Positions 2,277 through 61,091 of a stretch of 61,091 nucleotides of DNA are shown here, one piece after another (the stretch's first letter is position 1; every line of letters starts with the position of its first letter). A program made the translations under genes and the position numbers. The notes below the pieces were generated by a model. It made no database searches. It was not told the origin of the DNA and saw only the letters and a list, made by a program, of their open reading frames with translations. Origin of the DNA: a virus; the IMG/VR virus record IMGVR_UViG_3300021335_000017, positions 1 through 61,091 of that record. The stretch is one strand, 5' to 3'.

Positions 2277-2300
2277 AGACCCCTTGAAATACAGGGGTTT
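2277..2300 (+). terminator. Hairpin after the tRNA end, likely captured tRNA terminator
   Basis: ACCCCT (2279-2284) pairs with AGGGGT (2293-2298), extended by A/U and G/U pairs, with loop TGAAATAC. It lies 8 bases after the CCA, which is where the host tRNA terminator would be, so the identity segment probably extends beyond the CCA. The U-tract is short (TTT), so termination strength is uncertain. Confidence 0.5.
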
Positions 2301-2312
2301 CAAGTGCATGAT

Positions 2313-2349
2313 ACCCTCCTTGTCACACATATGTCACACCTAGGAGGGT
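2313..2349 (+). promoter_or_regulatory. Hairpin sequestering the integrase ribosome binding site
   Basis: ACCCTCCT (2313-2320) is the perfect complement of AGGAGGGT (2342-2349), which contains the strong Shine-Dalgarno AGGAGG five bases before the integrase ATG. The 21-base loop contains a direct repeat of TGTCACAC. In a transcript coming from upstream, the RBS would be buried in an 8-bp GC-rich stem, while a transcript starting inside the loop would leave it free. The right copy is at 60049-60085. Confidence 0.7.
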
Positions 2350-2352
2350 GCA

Positions 2353-3354: not shown

Positions 3355-3550
3355 GATTTGCTGTTAAATAGTTTGACACTTCTACAGTAGGGAACAGGTA
3401 TTTCTTACCGCGTTTGACATGTGCTATATCTAACTTGCCTAAGTATATTTGTTGGTAGAGAGACTCTTTTTTAAGCTTGAATAAACTGGCTAACTCTCCT
3501 AAATCCATAAATGGACCATATTTATCCATTAGCATCTGTTGCATTTCCAT
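3341..3550 (-). CDS. xis: Excisionase-like winged-helix/HTH protein
   Basis: 69 aa. Residues 15-60 (DLGELASLFKLKKESLYQQIYLG followed by RGKKYLFPTVEVSNYL) have the layout of MerR-like/HTH_17 excisionase domains: a helix-turn-helix, a short wing with K-R-G-K-K-Y-L-F, then a closing helix. It would bend attachment-site DNA and direct the integrase towards excision. It has an AAGGATG ribosome binding site and is the last gene of the leftward early block. Its 3' end overlaps the integrase 3' end by 14 bp. An alternative is a small transcriptional regulator. Confidence 0.75.
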   Translation of the reverse strand: MEMQQMLMDKYGPFMDLGELASLFKLKKESLYQQIYLGKLDIAHVKRGKKYLFPTVEVSNYLTANLSTS

Positions 3551-38863: not shown

Positions 38864-41800
38864 ATGGCAAATACCCCCTTTGAAAACTTCCTAGCGCAAG
38901 CTGATACCTCGCCTACTTTTACGGGTGAAAATGAGACCGTCGAAAGAGGTAAAGATAGAGATCTTGTCGAAGCGTTCCAAGACGGGGCCCTACAGGGCGC
39001 AGAAGGTCTTGGGGCAGACCTTGAGTATTTCTCAAGCCTTACTAACACACTTCTTGGCGACAAAGAATCCGCTGCTGACAATATAGCGCGTGCTCGTCAG
39101 TACGAAGAACAAGCAGCTAATGCTACAGCGGGCATGGAATCCTTTGAAGAGTTCCTCGATGAGCCCACTGTTATGGGCTTTCTTACGCAAGCAGCTAAAT
39201 TTAGCGGACAAGCTTCACCTAGCTTACTTACAACTGTAGCCGGCGGCGGTATCGGCGGCATCGGTCTTACTGTCGGTAAAGCAGGGTTATCAAAAGTATC
39301 TAAATCAACAGCAAAACGCATCGTCAAAGATTCCTTAGAAAGAACTGCAAAAGGTGTAGCAACACCTGACGAAAAAGATTTAGCTAACTCAGCGTACCGT
39401 ACGTTTAAAACTGGCGCGCTAGGCGGAGCTTTTACCGCAGAATATGCCCCACTCGCCGGTCAAAATTTAAACGAGGCTTTAGAAGCTGGCCAAGAGTTGG
39501 ATAGAGGCACTGCTCTTAGAGCTGGTACAGTTGCTTTACCTCAAGCGACGGTCGGCGTAGCCGGAGAAGTCGCAATCCTAAAACTTATAGGGAAGGTAGC
39601 TAATAAGCGAGCTGCAAAAGAGGGCGGAAAGTTCTCCGGTTTAACAAAAGAAATAGCATCAAACTTCCTAAAATCTGGTTCCATAGAGGCTACTACTGAG
39701 GTCGCGCAAGAAGGTATAGCAATTGCTAACCGTATGCAGATGGACGAAGAGTACACACTCCAAGATGCAAAACTCCGTTTGGCTGAATCGGCGTTCGGCG
39801 GATTCATGGGGGGCGCCCCTGTTGGTGCTACGGGTACAGCTGTTGTCGGAGGCGTCAAAGCCGCTTCTGACGCTGGCGTTGTTGATACGGCTGCCGAAGT
39901 TTTCGATAAAGCAAGACGAATGGTTGATGCTGCTAGAGAGTTTAAGGTCAATAAGGAAATAGACAGTGAGCAGTATGGCGACGTTATGTCTGGAAACACA
40001 ACACCAGAATCGCCAACTGATATAAAAGCCCAGCTTAAGGCTATGGTAAACCCAACTAGCACTAAACAAGCAGTCTGGGATGCGGGCGACAAACCTAGTT
40101 ATAAAGCTAGAACTGGCGTCGCTACTGAGATTAGCGTGGATGGAGAGATAGCCTGGGCAGCATTTATCCCCGGTAGAGGCACAATAATTTCCGCAGATAA
40201 GAATATTGTTAACGAAGTTATATCCTCTGGCGCTAGTGACTCTGCTTTATCTATAGCACTTGGCTATACAAAAACCAAAACAGAACTGGGTGACGGCGAC
40301 TTAGTAGTACAGGCGTTTGATGCTGACGGCAACGTGATTTCTGAGGAACTGACTGACCAAGCGAACTTAGAAGCTGCTAAAGCTAATGCTGAAGGCTTGG
40401 CGCCAGAAGGCGGCAATATCGGCGTTACTACTGCTGAGAAAGCTCTTGAGGAGCGTCGAAAACGCTTTGATGGACAGCCTAATGCTAAGTTTATGGACGA
40501 TGAGGCGTTCGAGCAACAGGACGGTATGCAAACTGTAGAGGCTTCTGAGGAAACAGTTACAGGTGAGTACGCACCTAAAAAAGACCCAAGTAGACTTTTT
40601 GACAACACCCAACAGGTGCGAGATGAATATGACCAAGTGTTTGGAGAGCAAGACTGGTCAAGTGCAGATATGGCACAAATGTCAGAAAGCACTCTTAGTG
40701 AGGCTGTAAAACAACAACGTGCCAACAAAAACTCCGTTGTAAGCATTCGCAAAAACGACAATGGGCAGTTCGAAGTTGTCAGAAATGATTTTGCAGATAA
40801 CTTAATTGAGCTAAGAGATCCCATAACAAAAGAGGTATATCGACTAACACCTTCTGAGTTCTTACCAAAAGCTATACAGATTGCTAAGAAGAGTAAATAT
40901 CGCGAAGGCGAATCAGGCGTAACCATTGTTACACCAGATGGAAAGAGACAGAAAGTTAACCTAGTAGATATAACACGCGCAGGGCAGCGCTTAGCTGCGT
41001 CGCGCGGAGACGGACAGTTTGAGGGGCAGACACCTTTCGAATCTGCACAACGCGGTCTACAAGAAATACTTGCAGACTTACAGATAGAGGGATACGACGT
41101 TATTGTATCCGGAGAATCTATATTTAACATTGGTGATCAGAAGTTGCCTGACTACCAAGGCAGCACTGTCGCAACAAAAGTAAACGGCGCCAATGTAACA
41201 CTTGGAGATTTACTAGCACCAAGAGATACCATACTTGAATCTAGACCCGAAACTATATTAGCAGAAGATGTCGATTCAGAGGGTAGACCAACAGGCGAAA
41301 TAGTAGGTAGTCAGTCAGGTACAGACGCGGCAATGGATGCTTTCGAGCGTTTCCAAAGAGAAGCACTTGGCAGAGAGACTAGAAGAATCAACGAAGAGTT
41401 TGATCCTGACGATCAAGTAGACGAAGCAGACGGCCGTTCAGAAGTTGATAGAAATCTTGACCGACCAGAGACTACAGAAGATGCAGATCGCCAGACTGAT
41501 AAACGTACTGGACGTGCGCCCTCTACGAATAATGCTGATACTGTTGCGGGTATAAGCGATTCTTTCCTTGTCGGTTTAGTAAGAAGCCTCCAAAAAGCTA
41601 TAAAGCTAAAAAACCCGCCTAGAATATTTAGTCTAGAAATGCTTCAGAAAATGTCTGATGCTCAGATACAGGAGCAGTTTGGTGCTCAAAATGTTGAAGC
41701 TGTTAAAAGCATGATAGCTAAAATGAGCGACAAAGACTCGATGCGAGGCATGTTCTTAGAGCTAAATGATAGTCCTAACTTGGTCGTACTAAACGAATCG

Positions 41801-44254
41801 GGCAACGCGTTATCTGACGCTATGGTGTTAGCGCACGAACTTGGACACGCATTATTCAAAGAAGAGATGACTTCAGCGGTAGCTAACCCAGCTGTCCGGC
41901 AGCGTCTACTCAGCGCATTTAGAAAGGACAAAAGATACCAGAACTATATTGATGGCTACAATGGCGACGCAGAACTTGCTTTCGAAGAGTGGTATGCCGA
42001 TCAAGTAGCAAGATGGGCTACTAAGAAGTTTATAAATAAACAGGCTAGGTCTCTTACAGACAAGCATTTTAAGAGTGTAGCAAATCGCCTCAAAAGACTT
42101 TACAGAGAGTTAAGTCGCTCTATGAGAAAACGTATGGGTAAATCTATACCCGAGTTTGAAACATATGTTGACGCAGTTGTTGAGGCTAAGAAACAAGGTT
42201 TTGAAACAGCAGGCACTGCTGCGAATCCTACATTCTTACAAAAAGCTCTAGTCAAAGGTATAGAGCAAGAAATAGTTAGGATGGGCGGAGAAGGCTTAGC
42301 AGATCATTGGCGTGCAAAAGTCAGAGAGATCGCAAGAAACCCTAAATTACGCCCCTTAATGAAAATAGTACGAACCGCTGACAGTATCATGCGAATGCAC
42401 GGCGGTAGGAAAATAGCAGACATGTTTTATGTGCGTTCGCAAGACGCTGAAGGTGGCGGTAACTTAGGGATGGTAGGCGCTTCTGCAAGGCAAATTGCCG
42501 AGTTCCAAAACAAGTTTGAAGACGAAATTGGCGCTATGGATGACCCCGATGTTCAAGCTGCTTTGTTGGAAGCTATGGGTGATAAACCTACCGACCAACT
42601 GTCCCCTAAAGCACAGCAAGTTCGAAAGTTTTTAGATTCGGTTTATGACGAGTATATAGCCCCATCTAATACAGACATAGGGCGGCAAGAGAACTACTTC
42701 CCGACTGCTTTAAACCTAATGGCCATCCAAGAAAATTTAGATGCTTTTGTTGAACTAATTATAGAAAACGACCCAACAGCAAATGAGCAAGACGTCAGAG
42801 ATTCTATTCAGGCTGTTTTACGTTACAACCAAAGTGTTGCTGATGGACAACCTATTGATGTTGATGCAACAAACCCAGCTGCAGCTGTAGAGAAAGCTCT
42901 TAAACTTACACTCAATGTAGGAAGAAACAAGTTATACGATGCTGGCTTTTTGCATGAGCCACAAGACGCGTTTGTTCAATACTTAAGACATGTTGTTAAA
43001 CGCGTAGAGTGGAATAAACATACTAAAGATGATCAGGGCAACGACATATTAGAACAAGAAATGGATAAACTCGACCCTGAAGATAGAGCTGTTGTCGAGG
43101 AAGTAATTTCTACGTACCTTGGCTACCAAACAAAACCATTAAGTCCATTCTGGAGGAAGGTAAACAGCTACGGTCAGTTCTTACAGTTCGTAACAATTCT
43201 GCCCTTTGCAGCAATCGCGTCGTTACCAGAGCTGGCGGGACCCGTAATTAACTCTAAAGAATTTGCGGATATTATGACAGGCCTGAAAGAAGTCGGTAGA
43301 ACAATAAGAAATAGAGCTGAGGCTAAGCAGTTCGCAAGGGATATAGGTGTCGTTACAAATGAGGTAGTAGCAAACTCGTGGGTGACGCAGGCTGAGATGG
43401 ATTACATGGACCCAAAAGTACGGAAGATGTCTGATGTGTTCTTTAAGTACACTGCGTTGCAATGGTTCACTAATTTCTCTAGAGAGTTTGCCGCTGGCAT
43501 GGGCGCACAGTTTATTATGAAACATGCCCGTAACGAGTTTAATAACCCAAGATCTACAAGGTATCTGCAAGAGCTTGGTCTAACGGCTGAAGAAGTTTTA
43601 GCGTGGAATAAAAACGGTAGAAAGTTTAATACGCCCGAAGGTAAAAAAGTAAAAGCAGGGTTACAACGTTTCGTTGAATCCTCAATCCTCAGACCAAACG
43701 CAGCAGAGAGACCAATCTGGGCTTCAGATCCACACTGGGCGCTTGTTTGGCAATTGAAGTCTTATTTTTACGCATATACCAAGGTTATATTCGGCGGTAT
43801 CTCCCGCGAAATGCAATCAAGAAGAAACGAGATGGACGGGCAGGGCATGCCGCAACTAACTGCGACTATGTCAGTTTTAGCAATTACCGCATTGGCTACT
43901 ATGCCATTGGCTATGTTAGGCATGGAGGTAAGGGAGTACACGAAGCAGGGGCTAGCTGCAATTATGCCGGGTGTTGAAACAAGCAATAAATACTTCCGCT
44001 CTGACCGAATGGACTGGCCAACATATCTAACTGAGATATTTGATAGGTCTGGATTCCTAGGTATTTTAACTTTGGGGTCTATGGCTCATCAAAACGCTAA
44101 GTGGGATAACAAAGGTATAGAAGGATACTTACCAGACTCGGTATTGCCGTTTTTAGGGCCGACAGCAGAAACAATTGACACAATTTTAGAGAACGGATTT
44201 CAGGTTGATCGGTCTCTTAAAAATCGATTAATACCAATCTACAATCAACTTTAG
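38864..44254 (+). CDS. Giant internal virion protein with HELGH metallopeptidase motif
   Basis: 1796 aa, the largest gene. N-terminal 350 residues include hydrophobic Gly/Ala stretches (LTTVAGGGIGGIGLTVGKAGL; GFMGGAPVGATGTAVVGGV) that could insert in membrane. The middle is acidic and soluble. A zinc-peptidase motif HELGH (H991, E992, H995) with a downstream E in LAFEEWYADQVARW is present, followed by charged helices and a C-terminal region with hydrophobic helices (LTATMSVLAITALATMPLAMLGM, near residue 1663). Place and size match the gp16-like ejection proteins of podoviruses; many carry a peptidase or transglycosylase. Specificity unknown. Confidence 0.85.
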   Translation: MANTPFENFLAQADTSPTFTGENETVERGKDRDLVEAFQDGALQGAEGLGADLEYFSSLTNTLLGDKESAADNIARARQYEEQAANATAGMESFEEFLDEPTVMGFLTQAAKFSGQASPSLLTTVAGGGIGGIGLTVGKAGLSKVSKSTAKRIVKDSLERTAKGVATPDEKDLANSAYRTFKTGALGGAFTAEYAPLAGQNLNEALEAGQELDRGTALRAGTVALPQATVGVAGEVAILKLIGKVANKRAAKEGGKFSGLTKEIASNFLKSGSIEATTEVAQEGIAIANRMQMDEEYTLQDAKLRLAESAFGGFMGGAPVGATGTAVVGGVKAASDAGVVDTAAEVFDKARRMVDAAREFKVNKEIDSEQYGDVMSGNTTPESPTDIKAQLKAMVNPTSTKQAVWDAGDKPSYKARTGVATEISVDGEIAWAAFIPGRGTIISADKNIVNEVISSGASDSALSIALGYTKTKTELGDGDLVVQAFDADGNVISEELTDQANLEAAKANAEGLAPEGGNIGVTTAEKALEERRKRFDGQPNAKFMDDEAFEQQDGMQTVEASEETVTGEYAPKKDPSRLFDNTQQVRDEYDQVFGEQDWSSADMAQMSESTLSEAVKQQRANKNSVVSIRKNDNGQFEVVRNDFADNLIELRDPITKEVYRLTPSEFLPKAIQIAKKSKYREGESGVTIVTPDGKRQKVNLVDITRAGQRLAASRGDGQFEGQTPFESAQRGLQEILADLQIEGYDVIVSGESIFNIGDQKLPDYQGSTVATKVNGANVTLGDLLAPRDTILESRPETILAEDVDSEGRPTGEIVGSQSGTDAAMDAFERFQREALGRETRRINEEFDPDDQVDEADGRSEVDRNLDRPETTEDADRQTDKRTGRAPSTNNADTVAGISDSFLVGLVRSLQKAIKLKNPPRIFSLEMLQKMSDAQIQEQFGAQNVEAVKSMIAKMSDKDSMRGMFLELNDSPNLVVLNESGNALSDAMVLAHELGHALFKEEMTSAVANPAVRQRLLSAFRKDKRYQNYIDGYNGDAELAFEEWYADQVARWATKKFINKQARSLTDKHFKSVANRLKRLYRELSRSMRKRMGKSIPEFETYVDAVVEAKKQGFETAGTAANPTFLQKALVKGIEQEIVRMGGEGLADHWRAKVREIARNPKLRPLMKIVRTADSIMRMHGGRKIADMFYVRSQDAEGGGNLGMVGASARQIAEFQNKFEDEIGAMDDPDVQAALLEAMGDKPTDQLSPKAQQVRKFLDSVYDEYIAPSNTDIGRQENYFPTALNLMAIQENLDAFVELIIENDPTANEQDVRDSIQAVLRYNQSVADGQPIDVDATNPAAAVEKALKLTLNVGRNKLYDAGFLHEPQDAFVQYLRHVVKRVEWNKHTKDDQGNDILEQEMDKLDPEDRAVVEEVISTYLGYQTKPLSPFWRKVNSYGQFLQFVTILPFAAIASLPELAGPVINSKEFADIMTGLKEVGRTIRNRAEAKQFARDIGVVTNEVVANSWVTQAEMDYMDPKVRKMSDVFFKYTALQWFTNFSREFAAGMGAQFIMKHARNEFNNPRSTRYLQELGLTAEEVLAWNKNGRKFNTPEGKKVKAGLQRFVESSILRPNAAERPIWASDPHWALVWQLKSYFYAYTKVIFGGISREMQSRRNEMDGQGMPQLTATMSVLAITALATMPLAMLGMEVREYTKQGLAAIMPGVETSNKYFRSDRMDWPTYLTEIFDRSGFLGILTLGSMAHQNAKWDNKGIEGYLPDSVLPFLGPTAETIDTILENGFQVDRSLKNRLIPIYNQL

Positions 44255-44920: not shown

Positions 44921-45268
44921 ATGTTTAAGTATTTTAAGATAGAAGATTTCGACTGCCAAGAGACTGGCAATAATAAGATGGTGGAGGAGTTCATTCACAG
45001 GTTAGATGAGCTTCGAGAAGCGTGTGGCTTCCCCTTCATTGTTACGAGTGGTTACAGAGATCCAGAGGGCCACCCAATAGAGAAACGAAAAGCGAGACCT
45101 GGCACTCACGCACGGGGTATCGCCGCTGACATACGCGTTTCTGGTGGGGCGCAACGTAGGAAAGTTGTTGAAAAAGCGATAGAACTTGGCTTTAACGGTA
45201 TTGGCGTAGCTAAAACGTTTGTACATGTAGATATAAGACAAACTGCTCCTGTTATGTGGAGCTACTAG
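44921..45268 (+). CDS. M15-type peptidoglycan endopeptidase (endolysin)
   Basis: 115 aa, a single catalytic domain of the M15_3 / VanY-like family. Zinc ligands are H63 and D70 in GTHARGIAADI and H102 in VHVD, with D104 next to it; the SGYRDPEG segment is the substrate-binding strand. It cleaves peptide links in peptidoglycan. It has no signal peptide, so it depends on the holin for release. Two bases after the XhlA-like gene. Confidence 0.93.
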   Translation: MFKYFKIEDFDCQETGNNKMVEEFIHRLDELREACGFPFIVTSGYRDPEGHPIEKRKARPGTHARGIAADIRVSGGAQRRKVVEKAIELGFNGIGVAKTFVHVDIRQTAPVMWSY

Positions 45269-45282: not shown

Positions 45283-45660
45283 ATGGCTTATTCTGAAACA
45301 GTAAGTATGGTAACCGGCGACACATTGCCGGAGCTTAATTTTTCTTTGAAGGACAGTTCATCAGCGGCCCCCGGGAAGCGGCTAGACGAATATGACTCAA
45401 ACACATGGGCGCCATTGGACGTTTCCGATACTAATATTGTACTTCGCATAAGAAAAGTAGGCTCGTCAACAATTGCTAAAACTATAAATTGCACGTTGAC
45501 CGATGCAGACAATGGTAAGATTAAAGCTAGTTTTTTAGGTAACTCTTTCTCTGAGCCCGGAACTTTTGAAGGTGAGTTGGAAATAACATTTCCAAATGAC
45601 GCTGGCGTCCAAACTGTTCAAGACCTGATAAAAATTAAAGTGCGTAGTGATTTTGATTAA
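45283..45660 (+). CDS. BppU-like Ig-fold baseplate/fibre domain protein
   Basis: 125 aa all-beta protein. Pattern MVTGDTLPELNFSLKDSS ... NIVLRIRKVGSSTIAKTINCTLTDADNGKIKASF ... GTFEGELEITFPNDAG resembles the N-terminal domain of BppU/DUF2479 proteins that anchors fibres to tails. It overlaps the next gene by one base (TAATG), suggesting that it is the anchor of the following giant fibre. Confidence 0.75.
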   Translation: MAYSETVSMVTGDTLPELNFSLKDSSSAAPGKRLDEYDSNTWAPLDVSDTNIVLRIRKVGSSTIAKTINCTLTDADNGKIKASFLGNSFSEPGTFEGELEITFPNDAGVQTVQDLIKIKVRSDFD

Positions 45661-48600
45661 TGATCTACCGTTCCGTTCTCGGACCTCATCAGCAACCTAG
45701 AGCGTTACTAGATAATGTAAAACACGCACGCCTAGGCGATGTCACAACAACAGTCCGCAGTGGCGGCGGATTCGCCCAAAACCAAATAATTACTTTAGAG
45801 CCTATCGTTCCACACGGCGGCTCAATGCCGTTTGCGGTAGATGTAACTTACGCAACTAATAACAATGACTCTACAACAGAAGGTATCTCTTTTGGGGTTC
45901 ATTATGACTCATCTAAAATAACTCTAGTAAGTGTTGTAAATAGGCTATCCGCGAATCTTACAGAAGTTATTACTGCTGATGACGTTGAAGACTTAGATAG
46001 TGATTACGATACAGACAAAGTTATAAAATTAACTTGGGTTGATGAAGATGAAAATTGGCCGGGGGTTAGCGAAGCGCGCCTTTGTACGCTAATGTTTAGG
46101 GGCTCAGATGACCTAACAACTCACGCAACCACAGTGGTTAATGTAACTCCCTTTGAATCAGCAGTTGGTTATGGTTTTCAAGCCGACAGCGTCCCAATGG
46201 TACTTAGATACGGAAGCTGGGATACCGACGCTGATGGCAACTTTGATGCCCTTTCTGATGCCCTTGTTTTTCTTAGGTTTACGTTTGGGATAACGGATGC
46301 TGATTTTTTAACGCAGGGGTCAATTAGCGCGAGCAGTCCTTTGACTGCCCTACAGGTCGCAGAAAATGCGCGCTTTATAAATAGATCTATAGGGGACATT
46401 GACGGTGACGGAGTAACGGATGCTTTAACTGACGGTATTATGCTCCTAAGATACGCGTTTGATATGCGCGGCGAAGCACTTATTGAAGGTGGTATTGCGG
46501 ACGGTGCTACTCGAACTACCCCTGAAGAAATTATTGCTTATATTGAAAAGTATATAAGCACGCAGCCTTTAGAATTACCAGCGCTACCGACAGTAGATAA
46601 TGACGATACAAGCACCCAGGGTCCTGACGAACAGTTAGGCTTGAGAGCAGTATTGCAGAAATCTAACCTAAAAGCCGTTAATGACGGGGTGAAAAACCCT
46701 GCAATAGCCTCAGCTAAGATACAAAACCCTTCAGCGGCTCTAACAAAATCAATCCTAAAAGCAGCTAGCAAAAGGACACAGGTTGCTGCAAAAGCAAGTT
46801 CAAAACAATATCAAGCAGCAGTATCTTATTCGAAGATAGCTGCCTCTTTCTTTGCGCCAGATTGGTTAGGCTGGCAGCGCATAGGCGAGACTGTAGGCTT
46901 TACCGATGCAGCAGCTAAAGCTATTAACAAACTTTTAAGTGATAGCGCCTCTTTAATTGATGATGTAACTACATCAACTGAGTACCATAGAGCTGCTTTA
47001 TCGCCGGCGCAAGCTAGTGAAACTTTTAGATTTGCCGCAAGTTATAGAAGAGAGTTACTAGATCAATTTAGGCTAGACTCATTTGTTTCAACGGCGTTTT
47101 TTGACGCAAAAGATAAATCCAATTTAGCTCAGCTTTCAGATGTAGCAAGTATAGTAGCTGCATTTAAGAGACAATTTTCTGAAGACGTTACATTTACGTC
47201 TGCGATGTCCCTCAAAGCAGCAAAACCTTTTTCTGAAGGGCTTGAATTTGAAGACACCTTTTCTAGAACAGTTGATTTTATCAGGCAAAATGTTGAAAGT
47301 TTTACTTACTCAGACGCCATTACGATGGCAATTACTAAACAAGAAACAGAGGGTATGTCAATTTCTGATACGCCCGGGTTCTCAGTAGCTTCGCCTAGAG
47401 CCGACGCTGCTTTTGTAAGCGAAACTATAAGACTATCGAAAGGGTTTGGCAGAGCTTTTTCTGACTCAATTAAGTTAGATGATACCGCAAAAGTGGCTGA
47501 CCAAAATGCCTTCAGGAGAGATAACTTAGCAAGCTTTTCAGATGAGGTCAGTTTGCTATTCAATGCAGAAAGAGCAATAGAAGACCCCATTTCGTTTGAG
47601 CAAAGTATAAACATGGCTTTGAGCAAGCCTGTAGAGTCTAGCGTAGGTTTCACAGAAGAAGTATCCTTCTTTACCCCCTACGCACGAGCGTTTGAAAACG
47701 CATTCGCCGTGTCTGACAGTAGCAATATAAAGGTTTCAAAATCAGATAGTGATAGCTTGCAGATAAGCGACGGCAGTTCTTTTTTATTTTCTAAGGCAGT
47801 AACAGATATAAGTAATGCTTCAGAAATATTGAGGACGCAAGCAAAATACGTAAGGATTTTTGATAGTTCACTTAGCTTAACTGACATCTTTAACTCGTCA
47901 GAAGGTAATGTAAACGGCGCAAGCGACTTAACAACATTTAATGACAGTTTTGGTAGGGCTTGGAGCGCGACAAGAAGCTTTAGTAGTTCTACAACCTTAA
48001 GCGAAGACTTTTCAATAAACTACGGAAAAAATGTTTTCGAGGCGTTATCAATTGAAGACACGCAGCTAATTTCTGTAGGATTTGGTCGCAAAATAATCGA
48101 TAGTACGTCATTAGATGATGCCGTAAGTAAAACAATTAAGACACTTAAAAAAGACGAAGTAGCATTCAATGAACAGTTTGTTAAAGCGATACAGTCTACC
48201 AAAGTTGACGAAGTAGGACCGTCTGAACTTATACGTACACAGGCTGGTTATAAACGCAGACTTGCCGATATAGTTTCTATAACCGACAGTCTTAGACACT
48301 CAGAAGGTAACGCAGAAACCAATACAAGTACCGCTGCTTTAAACGATGTGTTTAGTACGGTCTCTAATACAAAGCGCGCATTTGTTAACACTGCCGCAAC
48401 GTCCGATGTTTTAGCTATATCTTTCGGGAAAAAAGCGGATAGTGAGACAGTTTCCCTTTCAGATGCAGTAGACACAATTACTGAATACATCCGTAAACCT
48501 GATGAAATAGTCACATTAGATGATCCTATATCTATAGGTATAGCCAAGCCAAAAGCAGAAACCCTTTTATTAAGTGATAGCAATTCTATTTCAGCGACTA

Positions 48601-50858
48601 AAAGTTTAGTCGACACACTTGGGTCATCAGTAATTTTTAGGGCCTCAGCTAAATATAACAGATTCTTTTCAGAGACGTTTACACTAGACGATTTTGTAAA
48701 AACAGCTGAGGGCAACTACTTTGATAAAGATAATATAGCGTTTTTTAGTGACAATGTTGGGTTGCAAGCAGCTTTTAAAAGAGCAATTACGTCCCCAGTA
48801 TCCTTTGCGTCAACGACTTTTTTATCGATTGCTAAACAAATAAAAGAAGACCTAGCCTTATTAGATTCTGTACAGACAAAAATGGCCTTTAAAAGCGCCC
48901 ACGGCGATAGCGTAGGGTATCTGGATAGCATAACTAAAAAGCTTAAATCACAAAAAATTGACATTGTATCTATAAGTACAAATGCAGCTTTAGATACAAC
49001 TAAAACCCTTTTGAGTCCAGCTTCTGCGACGGAAATTCTTAGAACAGCTGTACAATATGCACGGGTTTTAAACGATGCGTTTACTCTGCAAGATTCAGCT
49101 AAAGTAGCAGAAGATAACGCTCTTGGCGATACTGACTCTACGGCAATCAGCGATACTATTTCTTTTGCCGCCAACACATATAGAACCTTTACAGAAGCTA
49201 GTTCCTTTACCTCTAGAGTATCGTTTAAGCCCGGTAAATCTCCTGATATAGAAGCTATATCTCTATCAGATACGCCTGTAACTAAAACACAGTACAAGCG
49301 GGCACAAAACGATGCTGTTAACTACGCAGACATAGTAAATAAAACAATAGGGAAAGGGGCTAATGATCCTCTAGCTTTAAGCGATAGCAGTCTAATTTCT
49401 GTTAGGAAAGAAGTAATAAGCAGTTCGAGTGCTAGTGAGACTGTTGATACTTTTGCTAGGTACCGGCGAGTCTTTGTAGATCCTATAGCCATATCAGATA
49501 TTTTTGCAAGGGTGGAAGACAACTTCTTACCGCCACAGAATAAGGTCACTTTTGCAGATACAGTAGAAACTAACAGCGTGTTTAAACGCGTGTTCCAAGA
49601 CGGTATAAGTATAGAGTCTTTTGTGTCAAAAGCAGCAACCTCATCTTTAACAACAGAAAATGCGGCACTTACAGACAGCGTCATATTGGCTAGCGGTATT
49701 CGAAGATCGGCCGACACTGACGAGATATCTTTTGCAGATGACGCATATTTAGGCTTTGGTAAAAATAATACTGAAGCTATGTCTTTTGGAGATCAGTTTT
49801 TAAAGTCAATAAAGCCTTCAAAACAAAGTACTGCACAAACATATGAGGTAATAAGAACTGCAAGTAAATATCGTAGATTTTTGAACGACAGTTTCGGCCT
49901 AAGTGTTAGTACTAAAGTTGCTGAGCAAAATAAAGACGGTAGTGCAGATATAACTACAGTTAATGATGCCGCTAGTCTTTCATTTACAGCGAAACGCGAA
50001 TTTGGTGAACGCCTGTCGATAGCTGATAACTTTACTAATCGTTACATCAAGGAAACATCAGATTCTTATGTAATTTCCGATGAGTTATTAAAAACTAATT
50101 TAGATAATTTTGATAACTATACAAATGGATTAGGGGTAGCGGACACTTCTTTTATTAACTTAAATAAACTTTTAATAGACTCGTTTGCTCTAGCTGATTC
50201 ATCAGTATTAACCTACAAAAAACAGGAGCCGGATTCTTTTGGAGCCAGCGAAACTATAGCTCGTCAAGCTAGTTATAAAAGGGTTCTTTCTGACGGTTTT
50301 CACCTGGACTCTATAGTAACAACTGCTTTTGATACACATGGCGTTAAAACTAACAGGACCTTCATAACAGATGCTACTTCTTTACAAGTGGATTTTTATC
50401 GATCTCAGGACGATAACATATCCTTTAGCTCTTCTATGAAAGTGGGTATGACAAAATCTGTTAGTAATGTAGTGGGCATCACAGATGATCCTACAGTCTC
50501 TTTACAAGCAAAACACAATGCCGGCCTTGACAGTTTTGGCTTTACTGAAGCTTTTACTAAGAAAATATCAAAAACAATTAACGAGAATGTGGCAATTGTC
50601 GATAGGCCTATAGTAGGCGGCGGCACCAATCCTGTAGATGAGTTTTCGGCAAGTGAAGCATTTGCGGCCAAATTTAGCTTTGACAAACGTCCTACACAAG
50701 AAGCAGTTGACTTCTCTGAAGATATTAGTAAACTAATTAAAATTAGTCCAGCTAATAATATTATCGGGCTTACTGATACTGTAACAATCAGCTTAACGAC
50801 TGCAGCTCCGTTAGGCGTAATAAATTCAGTCGCTATAAACACGACAGCGATTAACTAG
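45660..50858 (+). CDS. Giant fibre protein with cohesin-like, dockerin-like and ten 134-aa repeats
   Basis: 1732 aa. Residues 30-180 are beta-rich and cohesin/CBM-like (GGSMPFAVDVTY ... ISFGVHYDSSKITLVSV ... ARLCTLMFRG). Residues 188-211 (DTDADGNFDALSDALVFLR) and 246-270 (DIDGDGVTDALTDGIMLLR) are paired dockerin-like calcium loops with D at positions 1, 3, 5, 9. From about 450 to the end, a super-repeat of 134-136 residues recurs ten times, each beginning [AV]SE[TI][IL]R-x-x-x-x-[YF]-x-R and built of roughly 19-residue beta units (LSDS/FSD). No signal peptide. It follows the BppU-like gene and is a likely long receptor-binding or host-surface fibre. Confidence 0.8.
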   Translation: MIYRSVLGPHQQPRALLDNVKHARLGDVTTTVRSGGGFAQNQIITLEPIVPHGGSMPFAVDVTYATNNNDSTTEGISFGVHYDSSKITLVSVVNRLSANLTEVITADDVEDLDSDYDTDKVIKLTWVDEDENWPGVSEARLCTLMFRGSDDLTTHATTVVNVTPFESAVGYGFQADSVPMVLRYGSWDTDADGNFDALSDALVFLRFTFGITDADFLTQGSISASSPLTALQVAENARFINRSIGDIDGDGVTDALTDGIMLLRYAFDMRGEALIEGGIADGATRTTPEEIIAYIEKYISTQPLELPALPTVDNDDTSTQGPDEQLGLRAVLQKSNLKAVNDGVKNPAIASAKIQNPSAALTKSILKAASKRTQVAAKASSKQYQAAVSYSKIAASFFAPDWLGWQRIGETVGFTDAAAKAINKLLSDSASLIDDVTTSTEYHRAALSPAQASETFRFAASYRRELLDQFRLDSFVSTAFFDAKDKSNLAQLSDVASIVAAFKRQFSEDVTFTSAMSLKAAKPFSEGLEFEDTFSRTVDFIRQNVESFTYSDAITMAITKQETEGMSISDTPGFSVASPRADAAFVSETIRLSKGFGRAFSDSIKLDDTAKVADQNAFRRDNLASFSDEVSLLFNAERAIEDPISFEQSINMALSKPVESSVGFTEEVSFFTPYARAFENAFAVSDSSNIKVSKSDSDSLQISDGSSFLFSKAVTDISNASEILRTQAKYVRIFDSSLSLTDIFNSSEGNVNGASDLTTFNDSFGRAWSATRSFSSSTTLSEDFSINYGKNVFEALSIEDTQLISVGFGRKIIDSTSLDDAVSKTIKTLKKDEVAFNEQFVKAIQSTKVDEVGPSELIRTQAGYKRRLADIVSITDSLRHSEGNAETNTSTAALNDVFSTVSNTKRAFVNTAATSDVLAISFGKKADSETVSLSDAVDTITEYIRKPDEIVTLDDPISIGIAKPKAETLLLSDSNSISATKSLVDTLGSSVIFRASAKYNRFFSETFTLDDFVKTAEGNYFDKDNIAFFSDNVGLQAAFKRAITSPVSFASTTFLSIAKQIKEDLALLDSVQTKMAFKSAHGDSVGYLDSITKKLKSQKIDIVSISTNAALDTTKTLLSPASATEILRTAVQYARVLNDAFTLQDSAKVAEDNALGDTDSTAISDTISFAANTYRTFTEASSFTSRVSFKPGKSPDIEAISLSDTPVTKTQYKRAQNDAVNYADIVNKTIGKGANDPLALSDSSLISVRKEVISSSSASETVDTFARYRRVFVDPIAISDIFARVEDNFLPPQNKVTFADTVETNSVFKRVFQDGISIESFVSKAATSSLTTENAALTDSVILASGIRRSADTDEISFADDAYLGFGKNNTEAMSFGDQFLKSIKPSKQSTAQTYEVIRTASKYRRFLNDSFGLSVSTKVAEQNKDGSADITTVNDAASLSFTAKREFGERLSIADNFTNRYIKETSDSYVISDELLKTNLDNFDNYTNGLGVADTSFINLNKLLIDSFALADSSVLTYKKQEPDSFGASETIARQASYKRVLSDGFHLDSIVTTAFDTHGVKTNRTFITDATSLQVDFYRSQDDNISFSSSMKVGMTKSVSNVVGITDDPTVSLQAKHNAGLDSFGFTEAFTKKISKTINENVAIVDRPIVGGGTNPVDEFSASEAFAAKFSFDKRPTQEAVDFSEDISKLIKISPANNIIGLTDTVTISLTTAAPLGVINSVAINTTAIN

Positions 50859-50884: not shown

Positions 50885-51367
50885 ATGATCAAAGAAACAT
50901 TTAAGCTAAAAGGTAGCTTACTTATTAAGAAAAACGGCAAAGTGGAGCGAGAAATCCCGAACGCCGTTGTAGCAGTAGGTAGGGATTGGGTTATTAAACG
51001 TATGCAACAGGACCACGCCAGTGGTAACTATAAGGCTATGACTCATATGGCTGTTGGCTACAAAGATTGGACTGGTATTAATGCAGTTCCTGACAACGAA
51101 GCTCAACTTGCATCTGAGCAAGGTCGCGTAGCTTTTACTACCAGCGGTAACTCTATTACTACGCCAACAAATGACTCATCAAGATTAATACTTCAGTTTG
51201 TTGCTAACTTCCCAGCCGGAACTGCGACAACGCAGCTTACAGAAGCAGGCGTTTTTAACAGTGCTACATCTGGTCAGGGCACTATGCTTTGTCGTACTAA
51301 GTTTGATGTAATTAACAAGGGTGCCGACGATACTCTTGAGATTACTTGGAAAATAGAAGTATCTTAA
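50885..51367 (+). CDS. Fibre-module protein, paralogue of next gene's N-terminus
   Basis: 160 aa. Opening LKGSLLIKKNGKVEREIPN...GRDWVIKRM aligns with VEGFVTVVKNGEQILSQKN...GKDWIIHRLRG in the next protein; the end TEAGVFN...TLEITWKIEVS aligns with TEAALCF...IEIYWTIRIS. It is thus a short version of the same domain, typical of tail-fibre tip or collar proteins. GGAGACT precedes the ATG. Confidence 0.75.
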   Translation: MIKETFKLKGSLLIKKNGKVEREIPNAVVAVGRDWVIKRMQQDHASGNYKAMTHMAVGYKDWTGINAVPDNEAQLASEQGRVAFTTSGNSITTPTNDSSRLILQFVANFPAGTATTQLTEAGVFNSATSGQGTMLCRTKFDVINKGADDTLEITWKIEVS

Positions 51368-54782: not shown

Positions 54783-56510
54783 ATGGTTTACTTTAAACGT
54801 AATAAATTTGCAGGGATTGCGCCGGCTGTAGCACCTAAATTGTTAGCAGATCAATTTGGGCAAATTGCTGCAGATGTAGATTTGTCTTCTGGAAAAATAC
54901 TGGGCAGCAAAACTAATGCGGACACTACGTTTTCGATGGAGTCTGACACTAGATCTGTATATCGCTATGAATACGGCACGAGTTCAGTAGAGTATTTACA
55001 GTGGGAAGAAGACGATATTTCTGTGGCTAAAGGTCCTATCCCAGACGATTCTTTTGAGCGTTTATATTGGACAGGTGAAGATTTCCCTCGTATTGGCTGG
55101 CGCTCAACTATCATTGGTGCTGGAGATGTACATCCTTCAGGTAGTTATCGGCTTGGGGTTCCGGCACCATCTAGTGCGCCTACTACAAGCGTATCGGGAA
55201 CTGGCACTGAAGGACTCACTGCGTATGAAGTAAGCTACAGATATACTCTCGTAACAGCAGATGGCAGAGAGGGGCCGCCAAGCCCAGCATCTGTTATTGC
55301 AGAGAAGACTGATGGACAAACTGTTACAGTAAGTATACCAACTCCAACACTTAGTACAGGTAATCATAATTTTGCTGCGGGCTCTCTCAAACGTATATAT
55401 AGATCAAATACTGGCTCTAATAGTACACAGTTTCAGTTAGTTGCTGAAGTGGCTCTTAGTCAAGCCACTTATGCAGATACCAAAGCTAGTTACGAGCTTC
55501 AAGAGGTTATCCCTAGTACGACATGGATAGGTCCTCCAGATGACGATAGCACACTATATCCTGACGGTCCGATGCAGGGTTTAATACCTTTGGCACAAGG
55601 TGTTATGGCGGGTTTTTCTGGCAACAGGTTTTGTTTGAGTGAGGCATTTTTGCCGCACGCTTGGCCAATTTCGTATCGAATAACTACTGATGAGCCGATT
55701 GTAGCTATTGCTGCTAGCAACAACGGCGTCGTAGCACTAACAGACGGCCGTCCTTATTTTATAACGGGCACAGACCCAAGCGCGATGACGGCTATTACTG
55801 TCGATCTTGCACAAGCTTGCGTAAATAAACATAGTGTCGTTGATATGGGCGAGTATGTTTTATATGCAGGCCCTGATGGACTATGCATGGTGCAAGGCGC
55901 ATCAGGCTCAGTTGTTACTGAAGGTATGATTTCAGTTGATTCATGGAATGAAAACTTTTCGCCGACTACATATAAAGCTTTTTTGTACGAGGGTAAATAT
56001 GTTGGCTTTACGGGGGATGCATATAGTTTCATATTTGATCCGACAGGCGGTGAAAATACCCTTACAACTTTTACACATAATCTTGTTAACGCTGCAGATC
56101 ACGACCCTAAAAGCGGCGAGTTATTTTTGTTTAAACAGGGAGGCTCAGTATTAGAGAAGTTTAGGAAAGGTACAACTCGAGCTGATGCTACTTTTAGAAG
56201 TAAGAAATATGTTACTCCTAGTCCGGTATCTATGGGTTGGGTATCTATAGAAGCTGGCGAGTACCCAGTAACTGTAAAAGTCTACGCAGACGAGACTCTT
56301 ATTGCTCACTACGAAATAGATGAACATACAACAGCCGGCAAATTTACACAGACTACTACAGTTCCTAGCGGCATAAGTGCTGGAGTTTTATCTGAGCCGG
56401 TTATGAGATTGCCCGCAGTAGTTGGTCAGGTGTGGGAAGTTGAGGTAATAGGCAAAGACATTGACAGTTATTGTTTAGCTCAAAGTATTGATGAGGTGAA
56501 AGGTATATGA
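54783..56510 (+). CDS. Virion beta-propeller-like tail protein
   Basis: 575 aa, beta-rich with Trp/Gly/Asp repeats. N-terminus KRNKFAGIAPAVAPKLLADQFGQIAADVDLSSGKI is typical of a podovirus tail protein encoded before the tail-tip gene. An FN3-like part is seen at about 130-210 (LTAYEVSYRYTLVTADGREGPPSP). The rest may form a propeller (VVALTDGRPYFITG; EYVLYAGPDGLCMVQG). It likely forms part of the tail hub. Overlaps the next gene by 4 bp. Confidence 0.75.
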   Translation: MVYFKRNKFAGIAPAVAPKLLADQFGQIAADVDLSSGKILGSKTNADTTFSMESDTRSVYRYEYGTSSVEYLQWEEDDISVAKGPIPDDSFERLYWTGEDFPRIGWRSTIIGAGDVHPSGSYRLGVPAPSSAPTTSVSGTGTEGLTAYEVSYRYTLVTADGREGPPSPASVIAEKTDGQTVTVSIPTPTLSTGNHNFAAGSLKRIYRSNTGSNSTQFQLVAEVALSQATYADTKASYELQEVIPSTTWIGPPDDDSTLYPDGPMQGLIPLAQGVMAGFSGNRFCLSEAFLPHAWPISYRITTDEPIVAIAASNNGVVALTDGRPYFITGTDPSAMTAITVDLAQACVNKHSVVDMGEYVLYAGPDGLCMVQGASGSVVTEGMISVDSWNENFSPTTYKAFLYEGKYVGFTGDAYSFIFDPTGGENTLTTFTHNLVNAADHDPKSGELFLFKQGGSVLEKFRKGTTRADATFRSKKYVTPSPVSMGWVSIEAGEYPVTVKVYADETLIAHYEIDEHTTAGKFTQTTTVPSGISAGVLSEPVMRLPAVVGQVWEVEVIGKDIDSYCLAQSIDEVKGI

Positions 56511-59263
56511 GTTCGAACCCTACTAAAGTTCCCGCTATACCGCGACCTCCAAACGACGTTAGTCCGGAAGTTAGACGTTATCTTGAATCTGTACAAGAAG
56601 CATTAGAAATTCGATTAGGCCGAAGAGGCGAGCCAGAGGATAGAGCGGTAACTCTTCGAGAACTTATTGATAGCGGTTTAGCCAAAAGTCTTAACTCTGC
56701 CCCTTTTGACCCGAACAATATATCAGCTAATAACTTAGGTTTTTCTAGTTCTGTAGTTGATGCACTAGACTCTACTATACCGCCAGCTGTTACTAATTTT
56801 ACTGCGAGCGGTGCCTATAGCGTTATTAATTTAAGTTGGTATGTTGACCATAGTTTGACATTTCTTGCTCATGCTGAAATATGGCGTGCTGACACTGATG
56901 ACTTTGGCGAAGCTCAGTTTATTGACATAGCAACAGGATCTAAATATTTAGACCCTGTAGGCGGCGATCAAACTAAATACTATTGGATACGTTTTGTGTC
57001 ACAAGCTGGAGTATTTGGCCCTTTTAATGATGGCGATGGGACAGAAGCTTCCACAGCAACAGATGTAGCTCATGTCTTAAACGTATTAAATGAAGCTATA
57101 ACTTCATCTGAGTTAGCACAATCTTTAAGTGCGCCAATTGGTAATTTACCGTCCGACACAGCGGGAGCAATTGCTACTGCAGAGCAAAAAATTGATGCCA
57201 TAAAAAACACGCCTGCGTGGGCTGCAGATAACGATTATGTAATTGGTGATTTGGTTACCAAAGATAGCAATCTTTACTCCGCATTAACTGATCACACATC
57301 AACAGCTGATAACGCCCCCGATACCGAAGATGAAATAGAAGATACAACAGAGTGGAAACATATCGGTCAATACGGCAGTCTTATAGACGTAATTGCACAA
57401 ACTGAGACTACGAGAGCTACATTAAGTTCTGACTATTTAACTACTACTGATACTAATTCAGCTATAGCAACAGCTACAACTGGTTTGGTTTCGTCGACTG
57501 ATTTAGGTAGTTATGTTACTACTGCTACGCTTACTTCTGACTACATGACTTCAACTAGCACTAATTCAGCTATAGCAGCAGCTACTACGCTGCTTGAGTC
57601 TGAAATTGGTGGTACTTTTGAGCCGGGAACTACTTACGATTTTACCGGTTCAAACACACATGGGTTTACTGGTATACGAGCTACGTTAACTGCTGGCGCT
57701 AACTACCTGACTTATGAAGAAACCAGTGCGGATGCTAGTCTTAATTTAGTGGATGCGGTTGGCACTATCGATGGTGCTACCGACAAAATTGTTAGGGTAA
57801 AAATAAAACGTGTTGCCGGAGGTTCTGATTGGCAGGGTTGGCTTAGATACTCACATTCGGGCTCGACTCAAGTTTCGTTTGCTAATCAGACGACATACGT
57901 TCAGATTTCTGACCCTACAACTACAGATGAGTGGGTAATTGCTGAGTTTGACATGACTAACGCTCCCGGGTGGGATAATACTGTAGATGATTTGCGTTTT
58001 GACTTTGGTAATACGGGGGCAAGTGAGTTCCACATAGAGTGGATAAAAATTGGCGCTACTAGTAAGACTTTAAGTGCAGCTATCCAGACGCAGCAATCTT
58101 CTATCGACGGGGTTGAGGCTAATTACACTGTTAAGATAGACAATAACGGATCTATTGCTGGTTTTGGTCTTGCGTCTACTACTAGTGATTCTGGGAACGT
58201 AACCAGTGATTTTATGGTAGCGGCAGATAAGTTTTCACTTATGCCGTCAACTGATAGCGCAATTGCAGATTGGGCAAACGCTACAGCCTACGTCGTCGGT
58301 GACCAAGTTAAGTCTAATGACAATTACTGGGTGTGTATACAAGCCCACACTTCTGCAAATGCTAAAAAACCTCACGTAGCTGGCGGAGCAGATTACTGGA
58401 ACCAAACGGACAAAACACCTTTTTCGGTACTTACATCGGCTCAAACTGTAACTGTCGGTGATGAAACCGTGACAATTGACCCGGGTGTTTATATAGATGC
58501 TGCTTACATTAAAGATGCGGATATTACTGCAGCGAAAATAGGGGAGATTAATGCCGACAGTATTACTTCAGGTACATTAGATGTCACTAATCGTATAAGT
58601 GCCTCTTCTATAGAGGCCAGCAAGATATTGCTTGATGGCACTACAATGACCTCTACAACAATTGTCGGAGGCGTTAATGACGGTTTGACTGCTCTTAAAG
58701 TAGGTGCAATTAGTGCTAATGCAATAACTTCAGGGACTATAAACGCTGGCCGACTAAATCTGGGCTCTGGCGATGAGGCGATGCTTACTGCTGGGGGTAC
58801 TGGCAATAATGTCGTTCAAATTAAGGATTTAGCAGTAGATACGCTTCAATTAGCTGACCAAGCAGTAACAATACCAACTGGTGCATACACAGCAGGACAA
58901 TACGAATGGTCAGCAGCTGGTTATAAAGACCTGCAAACAATAACATACTCGCAAACTGCTGTTCCTATTGCTCTATTTTGGTCTCTTACTTGTAAACTTA
59001 GCTCATGGGGCGATGATGATTTTGAAACTCCAGCAACATTCCATGTACGAATATTAAGGAATAATGTGGAGCTGGTAACATATGATAATCTTTTTCCTAC
59101 TTTCAGCACAGGCGGTATCACGAGAATGGCGGGCGCTACGAATATACATACCGGTAGTGCTGGAACAGTTACTTATAAGCTGCAAGCAAAAGGAACAGGT
59201 ACATCATTCAGAAAAGCTAGAGTTACTTCTAGAAGTATGGTTACAATGGAGTTAAAGAAATGA
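56507..59263 (+). CDS. Tail-tip / host-specificity protein with two CBM5/12-like modules
   Basis: 918 aa, complete. Residues 90-180: FN3 domain (AVTNFTASGAYSVINLSWYVD ... YYWIRFVSQAGVFGPFN). About 236-285 and 585-630: chitin-binding-type modules (AWAADNDYVIGDLVTKDSNLY; DWANATAYVVGDQVKSNDNYW). About 300-360: ATTL / TTDTNSAIA repeats of DUF1983 (lambda gpJ-like). From 400 to 510: beta sandwich possibly carbohydrate-binding. The C-terminal 200 residues carry ITAAKIGEINADSI-type repeats and a beta end. It is the likely primary receptor-binding protein and overlaps the chaperone gene by 4 bp. Confidence 0.82.
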   Translation: MSSNPTKVPAIPRPPNDVSPEVRRYLESVQEALEIRLGRRGEPEDRAVTLRELIDSGLAKSLNSAPFDPNNISANNLGFSSSVVDALDSTIPPAVTNFTASGAYSVINLSWYVDHSLTFLAHAEIWRADTDDFGEAQFIDIATGSKYLDPVGGDQTKYYWIRFVSQAGVFGPFNDGDGTEASTATDVAHVLNVLNEAITSSELAQSLSAPIGNLPSDTAGAIATAEQKIDAIKNTPAWAADNDYVIGDLVTKDSNLYSALTDHTSTADNAPDTEDEIEDTTEWKHIGQYGSLIDVIAQTETTRATLSSDYLTTTDTNSAIATATTGLVSSTDLGSYVTTATLTSDYMTSTSTNSAIAAATTLLESEIGGTFEPGTTYDFTGSNTHGFTGIRATLTAGANYLTYEETSADASLNLVDAVGTIDGATDKIVRVKIKRVAGGSDWQGWLRYSHSGSTQVSFANQTTYVQISDPTTTDEWVIAEFDMTNAPGWDNTVDDLRFDFGNTGASEFHIEWIKIGATSKTLSAAIQTQQSSIDGVEANYTVKIDNNGSIAGFGLASTTSDSGNVTSDFMVAADKFSLMPSTDSAIADWANATAYVVGDQVKSNDNYWVCIQAHTSANAKKPHVAGGADYWNQTDKTPFSVLTSAQTVTVGDETVTIDPGVYIDAAYIKDADITAAKIGEINADSITSGTLDVTNRISASSIEASKILLDGTTMTSTTIVGGVNDGLTALKVGAISANAITSGTINAGRLNLGSGDEAMLTAGGTGNNVVQIKDLAVDTLQLADQAVTIPTGAYTAGQYEWSAAGYKDLQTITYSQTAVPIALFWSLTCKLSSWGDDDFETPATFHVRILRNNVELVTYDNLFPTFSTGGITRMAGATNIHTGSAGTVTYKLQAKGTGTSFRKARVTSRSMVTMELKK

Positions 59264-59658
59264 TTAATTATATTGTTTATAACAATGAGGGCGAGATTCT
59301 TAGAACTGGCACTTGCAGTGCAAACGATATGCATTTGCAGGGTGGACCAGATGAACACGTTATGGAAGGTATCGCAAATGATGTTACGCAAAAAATATTT
59401 GATGGCAACATTGTCGATAAAAACGAGACACCGGCACCAAGAGAACAACTACTTAGTGAGTGTATGGAGTCCTTAAGATTTTTGAGAAATAAGAGGTTAG
59501 CAAGTTCTGACTGGACACAAGTAGCTGATTCTCCTCTTACCGAGTCTAAAAAAGCTGAATGGGCTACTTATCGTCAAGCTTTACGAAACTTGCCTAGTCA
59601 ACATTTAGAAACTACAGATATAGCATCTGTTGCATGGCCTTCTCGTCCTACTTCGTAA
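59260..59658 (+). CDS. Tail assembly chaperone-like protein (right copy)
   Basis: Identical in protein to 1524-1922; overlaps the tail-tip gene by 4 bp. Carries the W-T-Q...W-x-x-Y-R-Q-A-L-R signature of small tail-fibre assembly proteins. See the left-copy entry. Confidence 0.7.
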   Translation: MINYIVYNNEGEILRTGTCSANDMHLQGGPDEHVMEGIANDVTQKIFDGNIVDKNETPAPREQLLSECMESLRFLRNKRLASSDWTQVADSPLTESKKAEWATYRQALRNLPSQHLETTDIASVAWPSRPTS

Positions 59659-59688
59659 AAAATAGCATACCGGTTATTAATATAAGTT

Positions 59689-59703
59689 ATTAGTAATACT
59701 AAT
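59689..59703 (+). promoter_or_regulatory. Operator-like palindrome (right copy of 1953)
   Basis: ATTAGTAATACTAAT with the same promoter context (TATAAT at 59714-59719). Confidence 0.7.
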
Positions 59704-59745
59704 ATTTTATTAATATAATATCGCCTTATCTAATGAGGCTCCCCA

Positions 59746-59931
59746 ATGATTACTTATATGCTGGCGTTTGCTATCGCATCGCTATCTCTTATTGCTGTTG
59801 ACGATTTAAAAATAAGTCGTAACTCACGATCCTGTGACAACTGTGACACTGTCACAATGAAAAATAATGAGAAACAAAATATATCGAAATATCATGAACT
59901 TAGGAATTTCCTATCTCGTAGGGGAAAATAA
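59746..59931 (+). CDS. Small membrane peptide beside attP (right copy)
   Basis: Same 61-aa reading frame as at 2010-2195, with identical protein sequence: N-terminal hydrophobic segment then charged tail. See the left-copy entry. Confidence 0.5.
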   Translation: MITYMLAFAIASLSLIAVDDLKISRNSRSCDNCDTVTMKNNEKQNISKYHELRNFLSRRGK

Positions 59932-59980
59932 ACTAAATAGAACTTAAGTAATTGATAATAAATAAATTATTTGATTTTAA

Positions 59981-60006
59981 GGGTTCGAATCCCTCCTTCA
60001 CCGCCA
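59981..60006 (+). other. attP: attP core (right copy)
   Basis: Same tRNA-Ser 3' end as at 2245-2270, ending CCGCCA; followed by the captured terminator-like hairpin (60013-60036) and by the integrase RBS hairpin (60049-60085). Confidence 0.85.
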
Positions 60007-60088
60007 ATTCCTAGACCCCTTGAAATACAGGGGTTTCAAGTGCATGATACCCTCCTTGTCACACATATGTCACACCTAGGAGGGTGCA

Positions 60089-61090
60089 ATGGCTACAATT
60101 AGAAAGCGTGGAAGTAAGTATCAAGCGCAGATACGCGTTAAAGGATACCCCCCACAGTCTAAATCTTTCGCTACACAAGCAGCTGCTAAAGCTTGGGCAC
60201 GTCGTGTTGAGTCGAGCATGGACAACGGATCATGGATCGATACCAGTGAATCACGGTCAGTGCTCATTGACCAGATGGTTGATGATTTAATACTAAGCTT
60301 TGAAAGGTTTGGTATTGAAGTACCTAAGACAAAGATATCCCCCCTAAAACAAATCGCACGCTTTTTTGAAGGCAAATCGATACATGACCTGACAGTTGAT
60401 GAGGTTTTAGATTTTGCAGCTGAGAGGCGTAAAACGGTGTCTGCTAGTACACTTCAATCGCAAATGTACTATTTTAGACAGACAGTTAAAAATTCTAGGA
60501 TAAAGTTACAAGAAGATGTTGTTGAGATAGCTATTGCAGAGCTTATTAGAAAGAAAATTATATTAGGCAGCGTGTGGCGAGACAGACGGCTTGAGCTTCA
60601 TGAATACGTGCTTCTTATGAAAGCAGCTAAAAAGCATTGGATTAGGCACGCTATAGATATAGCAATAGAGTCTGGGATGAGACAGGGCGAAATTCATGCT
60701 TTAAAAATTTCAGATATAGATTTTAAAAAGGGAGTTATTAAGGTTTTAAGAAAAGATCCTAAGTCTGAAGGAGGTAAAAAACTTTGTAAAATACCGCTGT
60801 TAAAGGGCGTGAGAGAGGCGATCCTACGTGCACAGAATGATATTGGTGAAGGGGACAAGTTGTTTAGAGTAAAGAAAAGCGGGTCGATTTCTGACAAATT
60901 TGCGGAGCTTAGAAAGAAAGTTGGTATTACTAATTTAACCTTCCATGATTTGCGTCACGAAGCTATCTCGAGGATGTTTGAAAGAGGCATGTCTGTAGAA
61001 CAGGTTAGGCTGGTCAGTGGACATTCTAGTCTTGACCAGCTTTCCCGGTATACGAATCTTAAACCTGAAGATGTTGCTAAGAAGTACTAA
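60089..61090 (+). CDS. int: Tyrosine integrase (right copy)
   Basis: 333 aa, same as the left copy except Ala to Gly in the segment KKS-x-SISDKF (about residue 266); about ten other base changes are silent. R198, H286, R289, H312 and Y321 are all present. Stop codon is one base before the window end. Confidence 0.95.
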   Translation: MATIRKRGSKYQAQIRVKGYPPQSKSFATQAAAKAWARRVESSMDNGSWIDTSESRSVLIDQMVDDLILSFERFGIEVPKTKISPLKQIARFFEGKSIHDLTVDEVLDFAAERRKTVSASTLQSQMYYFRQTVKNSRIKLQEDVVEIAIAELIRKKIILGSVWRDRRLELHEYVLLMKAAKKHWIRHAIDIAIESGMRQGEIHALKISDIDFKKGVIKVLRKDPKSEGGKKLCKIPLLKGVREAILRAQNDIGEGDKLFRVKKSGSISDKFAELRKKVGITNLTFHDLRHEAISRMFERGMSVEQVRLVSGHSSLDQLSRYTNLKPEDVAKKY

Positions 61091-61091
61091 G

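Follow-up and report, generated by a model that had tools for sequence, protein, structure and literature searches.

A marine phage fibre carries, near its N-terminus, a cohesin-like domain followed by a paired, dockerin-like loop-helix module, and both have homologues on secreted proteins of marine Gammaproteobacteria. The window, which is the whole stretch of DNA analysed, comprises a single virus record with a length of 61,091 bases, and its features are collected in Table 1. We tentatively propose, at somewhat less than an even chance, that the two modules are a docking cassette of host type captured onto a podovirus fibre, with modules on the host surface as favoured partners. The fold, the loops, the repeats, the synteny, the single phage origin and the bacterial homologues were all obtained by computation.

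Table 1. Features of the window and of other phage contigs.
Feature	Position	Strand	Basis or remark
Internal virion protein, 1796 aa, synteny and phylogeny marker	38864..44254	+	phrog_30152 virion structural protein
Endolysin, M15-type peptidase, lysis cassette	44921..45268	+	phrog_894 endolysin, E 5e-30
BppU_N-like small protein, 125 aa, directly upstream of fibre	45283..45660	+	weak Pfam BppU_N
Long repeat fibre gene, cohesin-like and dockerin-like modules, 1732 aa	45660..50858	+	intact ORF, ATG start
N-terminal motif M-x-Y-R-S-V-L-G-...-R-A-L, residues 1-20	45660..45719	+	common to L020, L050
Cohesin-like beta-sandwich, residues ~40-183	45777..46208	+	AF2 strands; Foldseek cohesin matches
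Acidic loop DLDSDYDTD inside cohesin-like domain, residues 111-119	45990..46016	+	pattern scan
Paired loop-helix module, dockerin-like, residues 187-297	46218..46550	+	AF2 helices; bacterial and phage homologues
Calcium-type loop 1, DTDADGNFDALSD, residues 188-200	46221..46259	+	conserved acid/Asn positions
Calcium-type loop 2, DIDGDGVTDALTD, residues 246-258	46395..46433	+	conserved acid/Asn positions
Nine complete 134-residue repeats, residues 453-1664	47016..50651	+	autocorrelation, block alignment
Tenth repeat, partial, residues 1665-1716	50652..50807	+	block alignment
Conserved C-terminal motif GVINSVAINTTAIN	50808..50855	+	LNxxxLNxxxLN-type ending
phrog_5417 protein directly downstream of fibre	50885..51367	+	phiA008 homologue called tail fiber protein
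Tail fibre protein and tail fibre assembly protein	56507..59658	+	phrog_19394 and phrog_4912
Paired-loop modules in very large phage-contig proteins	L003:2924-3289, L004:8780-9301, L005:1679-2200, L006:5805-6293		
Paired-loop modules in very large phage-contig proteins	L007:7575-8015, L008:6780-7175, L009:2593-3114		

The window begins and ends with a direct repeat of 3,355 bases (1-3355 and 57737-61091), whose two copies differ by 34 mismatches. The genome length is therefore about 57.7 kb, and the record represents a circular genome or one with terminal redundancy, in which the overlap is present as two slightly different copies. Terminase and portal genes are clear, and when these and the internal virion protein are compared, the nearest isolates include Aeromonas phage phiA008 and Pseudomonas phages of the KPP25 group. 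Considering this, and that a relative of KPP25 has a short tail of ~20 nm by electron microscopy (PMC13340246), the virus is probably a podovirus. The fibre gene is placed after the endolysin and holin-like genes, and a BppU_N-like gene lies immediately 5' of it in all 53 fibre-bearing loci that we recovered. The encoded small protein is 32% identical to its phiA008 homologue, while a possible homologue in KPP25 carries the annotation structural protein; it is a probable virion partner of the fibre. Isolate phiA008 keeps the gene order, with the BppU_N-like gene followed by a short protein that looks repetitive by eye and then by the phrog_5417 protein, annotated as tail fiber. From this synteny we infer that the fibre is present in the virion, and the name fibre reflects synteny and repeat character rather than a structure. 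The position behind the lysis genes would also suit a protein that is made late and released, or one that acts on the host surface during lysis; however, the gene is flanked by the BppU_N-like partner and tail fibre genes in an order conserved to phiA008, and no signal peptide is apparent in its sequence, which makes such a role outside the virion very improbable.

The fold of the first module is predicted with good scores. The AlphaFold2 model of residues 38-302, for which an alignment of 16 sequences was used as input, has a pLDDT of 89.6 and a pTM of 0.72, and in a Foldseek search of the PDB cohesins take the first 27 places (best E 1.2e-7; TM on the target 0.6-0.7), the best of them almost all cellulosomal. 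Pfam Cohesin (PF00963) gives no match to the window protein even at E=10; thus, the domain is cohesin-like and not a strict member of the Cohesin family. A bacterial relative (L095) passes the cut-off of this family with 42.4 vs 24.1 bits. Like the type I cohesins of cellulosomes (PDB 4dh2, 1g1k, 1aoh), the phage domain is predicted to form a beta-sandwich, but it sits on a phage fibre instead of a scaffoldin and carries a conserved acidic loop of the DxDxDxxxD type, whose acidic columns are invariant or nearly so in the subfamily alignment. Judged from its residues, this loop is a possible third or extra Ca2+ site, which is not typical of cohesins.

The second module consists of two calcium-type loops, each directly followed by a helix in the AlphaFold2 model (residues 197-208 and 255-266). 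In loop 1, an acid or Asn occupies positions 1, 3, 5, 9 and 13 in all aligned members; in loop 2, the same is true of positions 1, 3 and 13 in 9 of 9 members and of positions 5 and 9 in 8 of 9. This pattern suggests that the paired loops bind calcium. Dockerin and EF-hand loops place their last ligand at position 12, and the units of a type I dockerin are usually about 30 residues apart. The phage module shares with type I dockerins (PF00404; PDB 1ohz) the two units of loop and helix; it differs in that both loops have 13 residues, with the last acid at position 13 and Ser or Thr at position 12 in all members, and in that extra helices separate the units, which start 58 residues apart. Profile alignment to 1ohz places a one-residue insertion in the loop and scores weakly, and the window protein has no Dockerin_1 match in Pfam, even at E=10, although a related phage module (L003) is just above the cut-off (23.3 vs 22.9 bits). 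Strict membership of the dockerin family was rejected on the loop and Pfam results, and we call the module dockerin-like because of the 13-residue loop, the weak alignment to 1ohz and the lack of a Dockerin_1 match. The original prediction, which had read a cohesin-like domain and two dockerin-type loops from the sequence, is thus borne out by the model and the Foldseek cohesins for the fold and by DxDxDG loops exactly at residues 188 and 246; its dockerin-type loops stand as paired calcium-type loop-helix units and fall short of a strict dockerin in loop length, spacing and Pfam match.

With the cassette alignment as query, four marine gammaproteobacterial MAGs were found to contain homologues. 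These contain 4, 14, 15 and 9 paired-module matches and, in the same order, 5, 12, 4 and 2 cohesin-like matches (E<=0.001; a few are fragments). Many of the bacterial paired modules stand at a protein end, with 3-7 residues left before the stop codon or shortly behind the start, several proteins share the phage order of a cohesin-like domain and then a paired module, a tandem that is often C-terminal, and at one locus an apparently membrane-anchored protein with a cohesin-like end adjoins proteins that bear the paired module only. In a Porticoccaceae MAG (L096:1-7304) and in L095, L097 and L098, many secreted proteins carry terminal paired-loop modules, and others carry one to three cohesin-like domains. 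As far as sequences can tell, marine Gammaproteobacteria apparently possess a non-cellulosomal cohesin-dockerin-like system. Across 61 genomes of one family, paired modules occur in 11, cohesin-like domains in 5 and both in 4, a co-occurrence above expectation (p=0.003, or p=0.013 once the source genome is left out); the pairing of the two module types is suggestive only, since contamination of MAGs is possible and no cohesin-like domain of this subfamily is seen in 7 of the 11 genomes that have paired modules. There are precedents for such modules on secreted proteins outside cellulosomes: weak hints were found in Saccharophagus degradans in 2008 (PMC2386152), and ANME archaea are rich in cohesin/dockerin proteins (PMC9012536). 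These systems have scaffoldin-like proteins with several cohesins, and their modules are cellular, whereas the present two sit together on a single phage fibre.

Among phages, the cassette is rare. The window fibre protein alone gave no useful match in Pfam, NCBIfam or PDB sequences. Single-sequence scans of viral and genome collections yielded no relative, and BFVD held no clear named homologue. Queries with the whole fibre, its N-terminal part, its repeats, a bacterial cassette and a short fibre were all negative in tblastn against isolated phages, where the low-complexity filter may contribute. Homologous loci were recovered through a DNA pattern of the loop motif and through relatives of the neighbouring 1796-aa protein. 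A syntenic fibre gene is present in 53 of the 80 related viral loci, and most of the other 27 end too early to show it. Besides the window, only L020 and L050 have the cassette among these loci, and a cohesin profile scan of viral contigs added none to these two. The three cassette-bearing fibres measure 1732 aa (window), 1713 aa (L020) and at least 1850 aa (L050), while 45 distinct fibres at the same place in related phages have repeats without the cassette and are 93-617 aa long (median 326 aa; some are cut by contig ends). A phylogeny of the 1796-aa protein unites the window, L020 and L050 in one clade with 100% support; the closest lineage whose fibre can be read has one of 280 aa, without the cassette. 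Because the cassette is confined to this clade of three phages with fibres of at least 1713 aa, a single gain with shaft growth alongside is the simplest reading.

The ends of the fibre resemble those of shorter relatives. Two cassette-free fibres (L069 and L091) start with MAYRVVVxKPxxxRALAS, which resembles the 18-residue N-terminal motif of the window fibre, and so the cassette seems to have been inserted behind this motif. The LNxxxLNxxxLN-type ending is found in most complete short fibres (for example L034, L065 and L087) and, within the window, in the fibre protein only; virion attachment and capping of the shaft are candidate roles. The short repeat fibres of this phage group (phrog_12240), to which phiA008 gene0064 (296 aa) corresponds in place, have the same gene position, upstream BppU_N-like gene and repeat type, with the repeats of phiA008 similar by eye only; they have no cassette and are much shorter, at 617 aa at most. 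The L050 fibre (L050:17005-22554) has a non-repeat stretch (YDQTVAFSGTGTKRVSIRN...) somewhat past its middle, whose sequence suggests an inserted domain, beta-rich or carbohydrate-binding. Other phage contigs encode very large proteins (~2350-3950 aa; that of L004 is cut by the locus end) with a paired-loop module and without a cohesin-like domain.

The shaft is built of the 134-residue repeats. At lags 134/135, 269, 403 and 537 its autocorrelation peaks above every one of 50 shuffles (at lag 134, -0.05 vs a shuffle maximum of -0.36), and chance repeats were rejected on this ground. Blocks start at residues 453, 587, 721, 855, 990, 1124, 1258, 1395, 1529 and 1665; they are rich in Ser, Ala, Thr and Asp, have a mean pairwise identity of 24% and are matched by phrog_12240 with E 7.5e-13. 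L020 has the same period of 133/134, and the AlphaFold2 monomer of two repeats has a pLDDT of 30. Synteny and the phiA008 gene order support a long repeat protein within a tail-gene neighbourhood, in keeping with the phage structural gene of the original prediction, and all repeat starts proposed at that time fall within 3 residues of the computed ones. From the ten 134-residue repeats then described, the period and nine complete blocks are retained and the tenth is only partial; the 19-residue units inside them correspond to a shorter period near 20 within each block, so that their length is better given as about 19-20 residues.

Considering that the cassette comes together with a much longer shaft, its modules may be calcium-stiffened stalk elements of the kind seen in bacterial adhesins, which would add only length or rigidity to the fibre and make no specific docking contacts. 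The giant proteins on other phage contigs, with paired modules and no cohesin-like domain, would fit such a spacer, and CLIPPER, a stalk domain of a fibrillar adhesin (PMC12617251), is also among the Foldseek matches (9ifr). However, a passive spacer has no need for one cohesin-like domain and exactly two loop units in the bacterial order, and the paired module of bacteria is at the ends of proteins, like a tag. We regard a spacer without docking as rather doubtful.

A docking device needs a partner. A profile search of the window phage found no second clear cohesin- or dockerin-like module; therefore, the partner would come from the host or be a second fibre of the same kind. The best of the remaining matches, a weak paired-loop match (E 0.006) in the gene after the portal (28528-29544), may be due to chance. 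The original prediction had offered self-assembly and capture of, or docking onto, host surface proteins, and both functions stay plausible. First, a podovirus-type marine phage would have acquired a cassette like the cohesin-dockerin-like modules that marine Gammaproteobacteria carry on secreted proteins; in its tail or side fibre this cassette would follow the N-terminal motif, and the repeat shaft would have grown several-fold. Its function would most likely be that of a calcium-dependent protein-protein docking device, and its favoured partners would be complementary modules on the host surface, thus helping adsorption. Docking is argued for by the fold, the bacterial relative above the Pfam cut-off, the conserved loops, the bacterial order of the modules, their co-occurrence and the single gain. 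The host is slightly favoured as partner because the cassette is homologous to modules on marine bacterial secreted proteins, and the module-rich marine gammaproteobacterial genomes suggest indirect support; the less than strict pairing of the modules in those genomes speaks against it. In most tail fibres, the N-terminus is the end held by the virion; a cassette near it is poorly placed for a receptor-binding tip, which speaks instead for self-assembly or a structural role.

Second, the cohesin-like domain may bind the paired module of a neighbouring fibre in a calcium-dependent manner, so that fibres bundle, branch or form a tail collar. Both halves are on one protein with no other clear copy in the phage genome, the cassette is probably close to the virion, and the linker of a few residues would make binding within a chain unlikely and binding between chains likelier. 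On the other hand, the bacterial tandem coexists with proteins that have one half only, which fits binding between different proteins, and many phage fibres trimerise without such modules. Self-assembly is, in our judgement, somewhat unlikely. For docking to the host, the more specific form of the proposal is that the fibre, with its captured complementary modules, would bind proteins of the host's cohesin-dockerin-like surface network in a calcium-dependent way and use this network as its attachment point, which we put forward as possible and with limited confidence; docking activity and partner identity are both inferences.

Each type of module is already known. Gene 40 of vibriophage VvAW1 (PMC3558961) and Gp02 of E. 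coli phage HSE2 (PMC5967307) have been likened to dockerin, as is the case here, but no cohesin-like partner was reported on the same protein. In the literature searched, we found no report of a cohesin-dockerin tandem on a phage fibre and none of phage receptors of the cohesin-dockerin kind. If docking to the host is true, this would be a new mode of host recognition, in which a phage joins the protein network with which its host puts together secreted proteins of its own.
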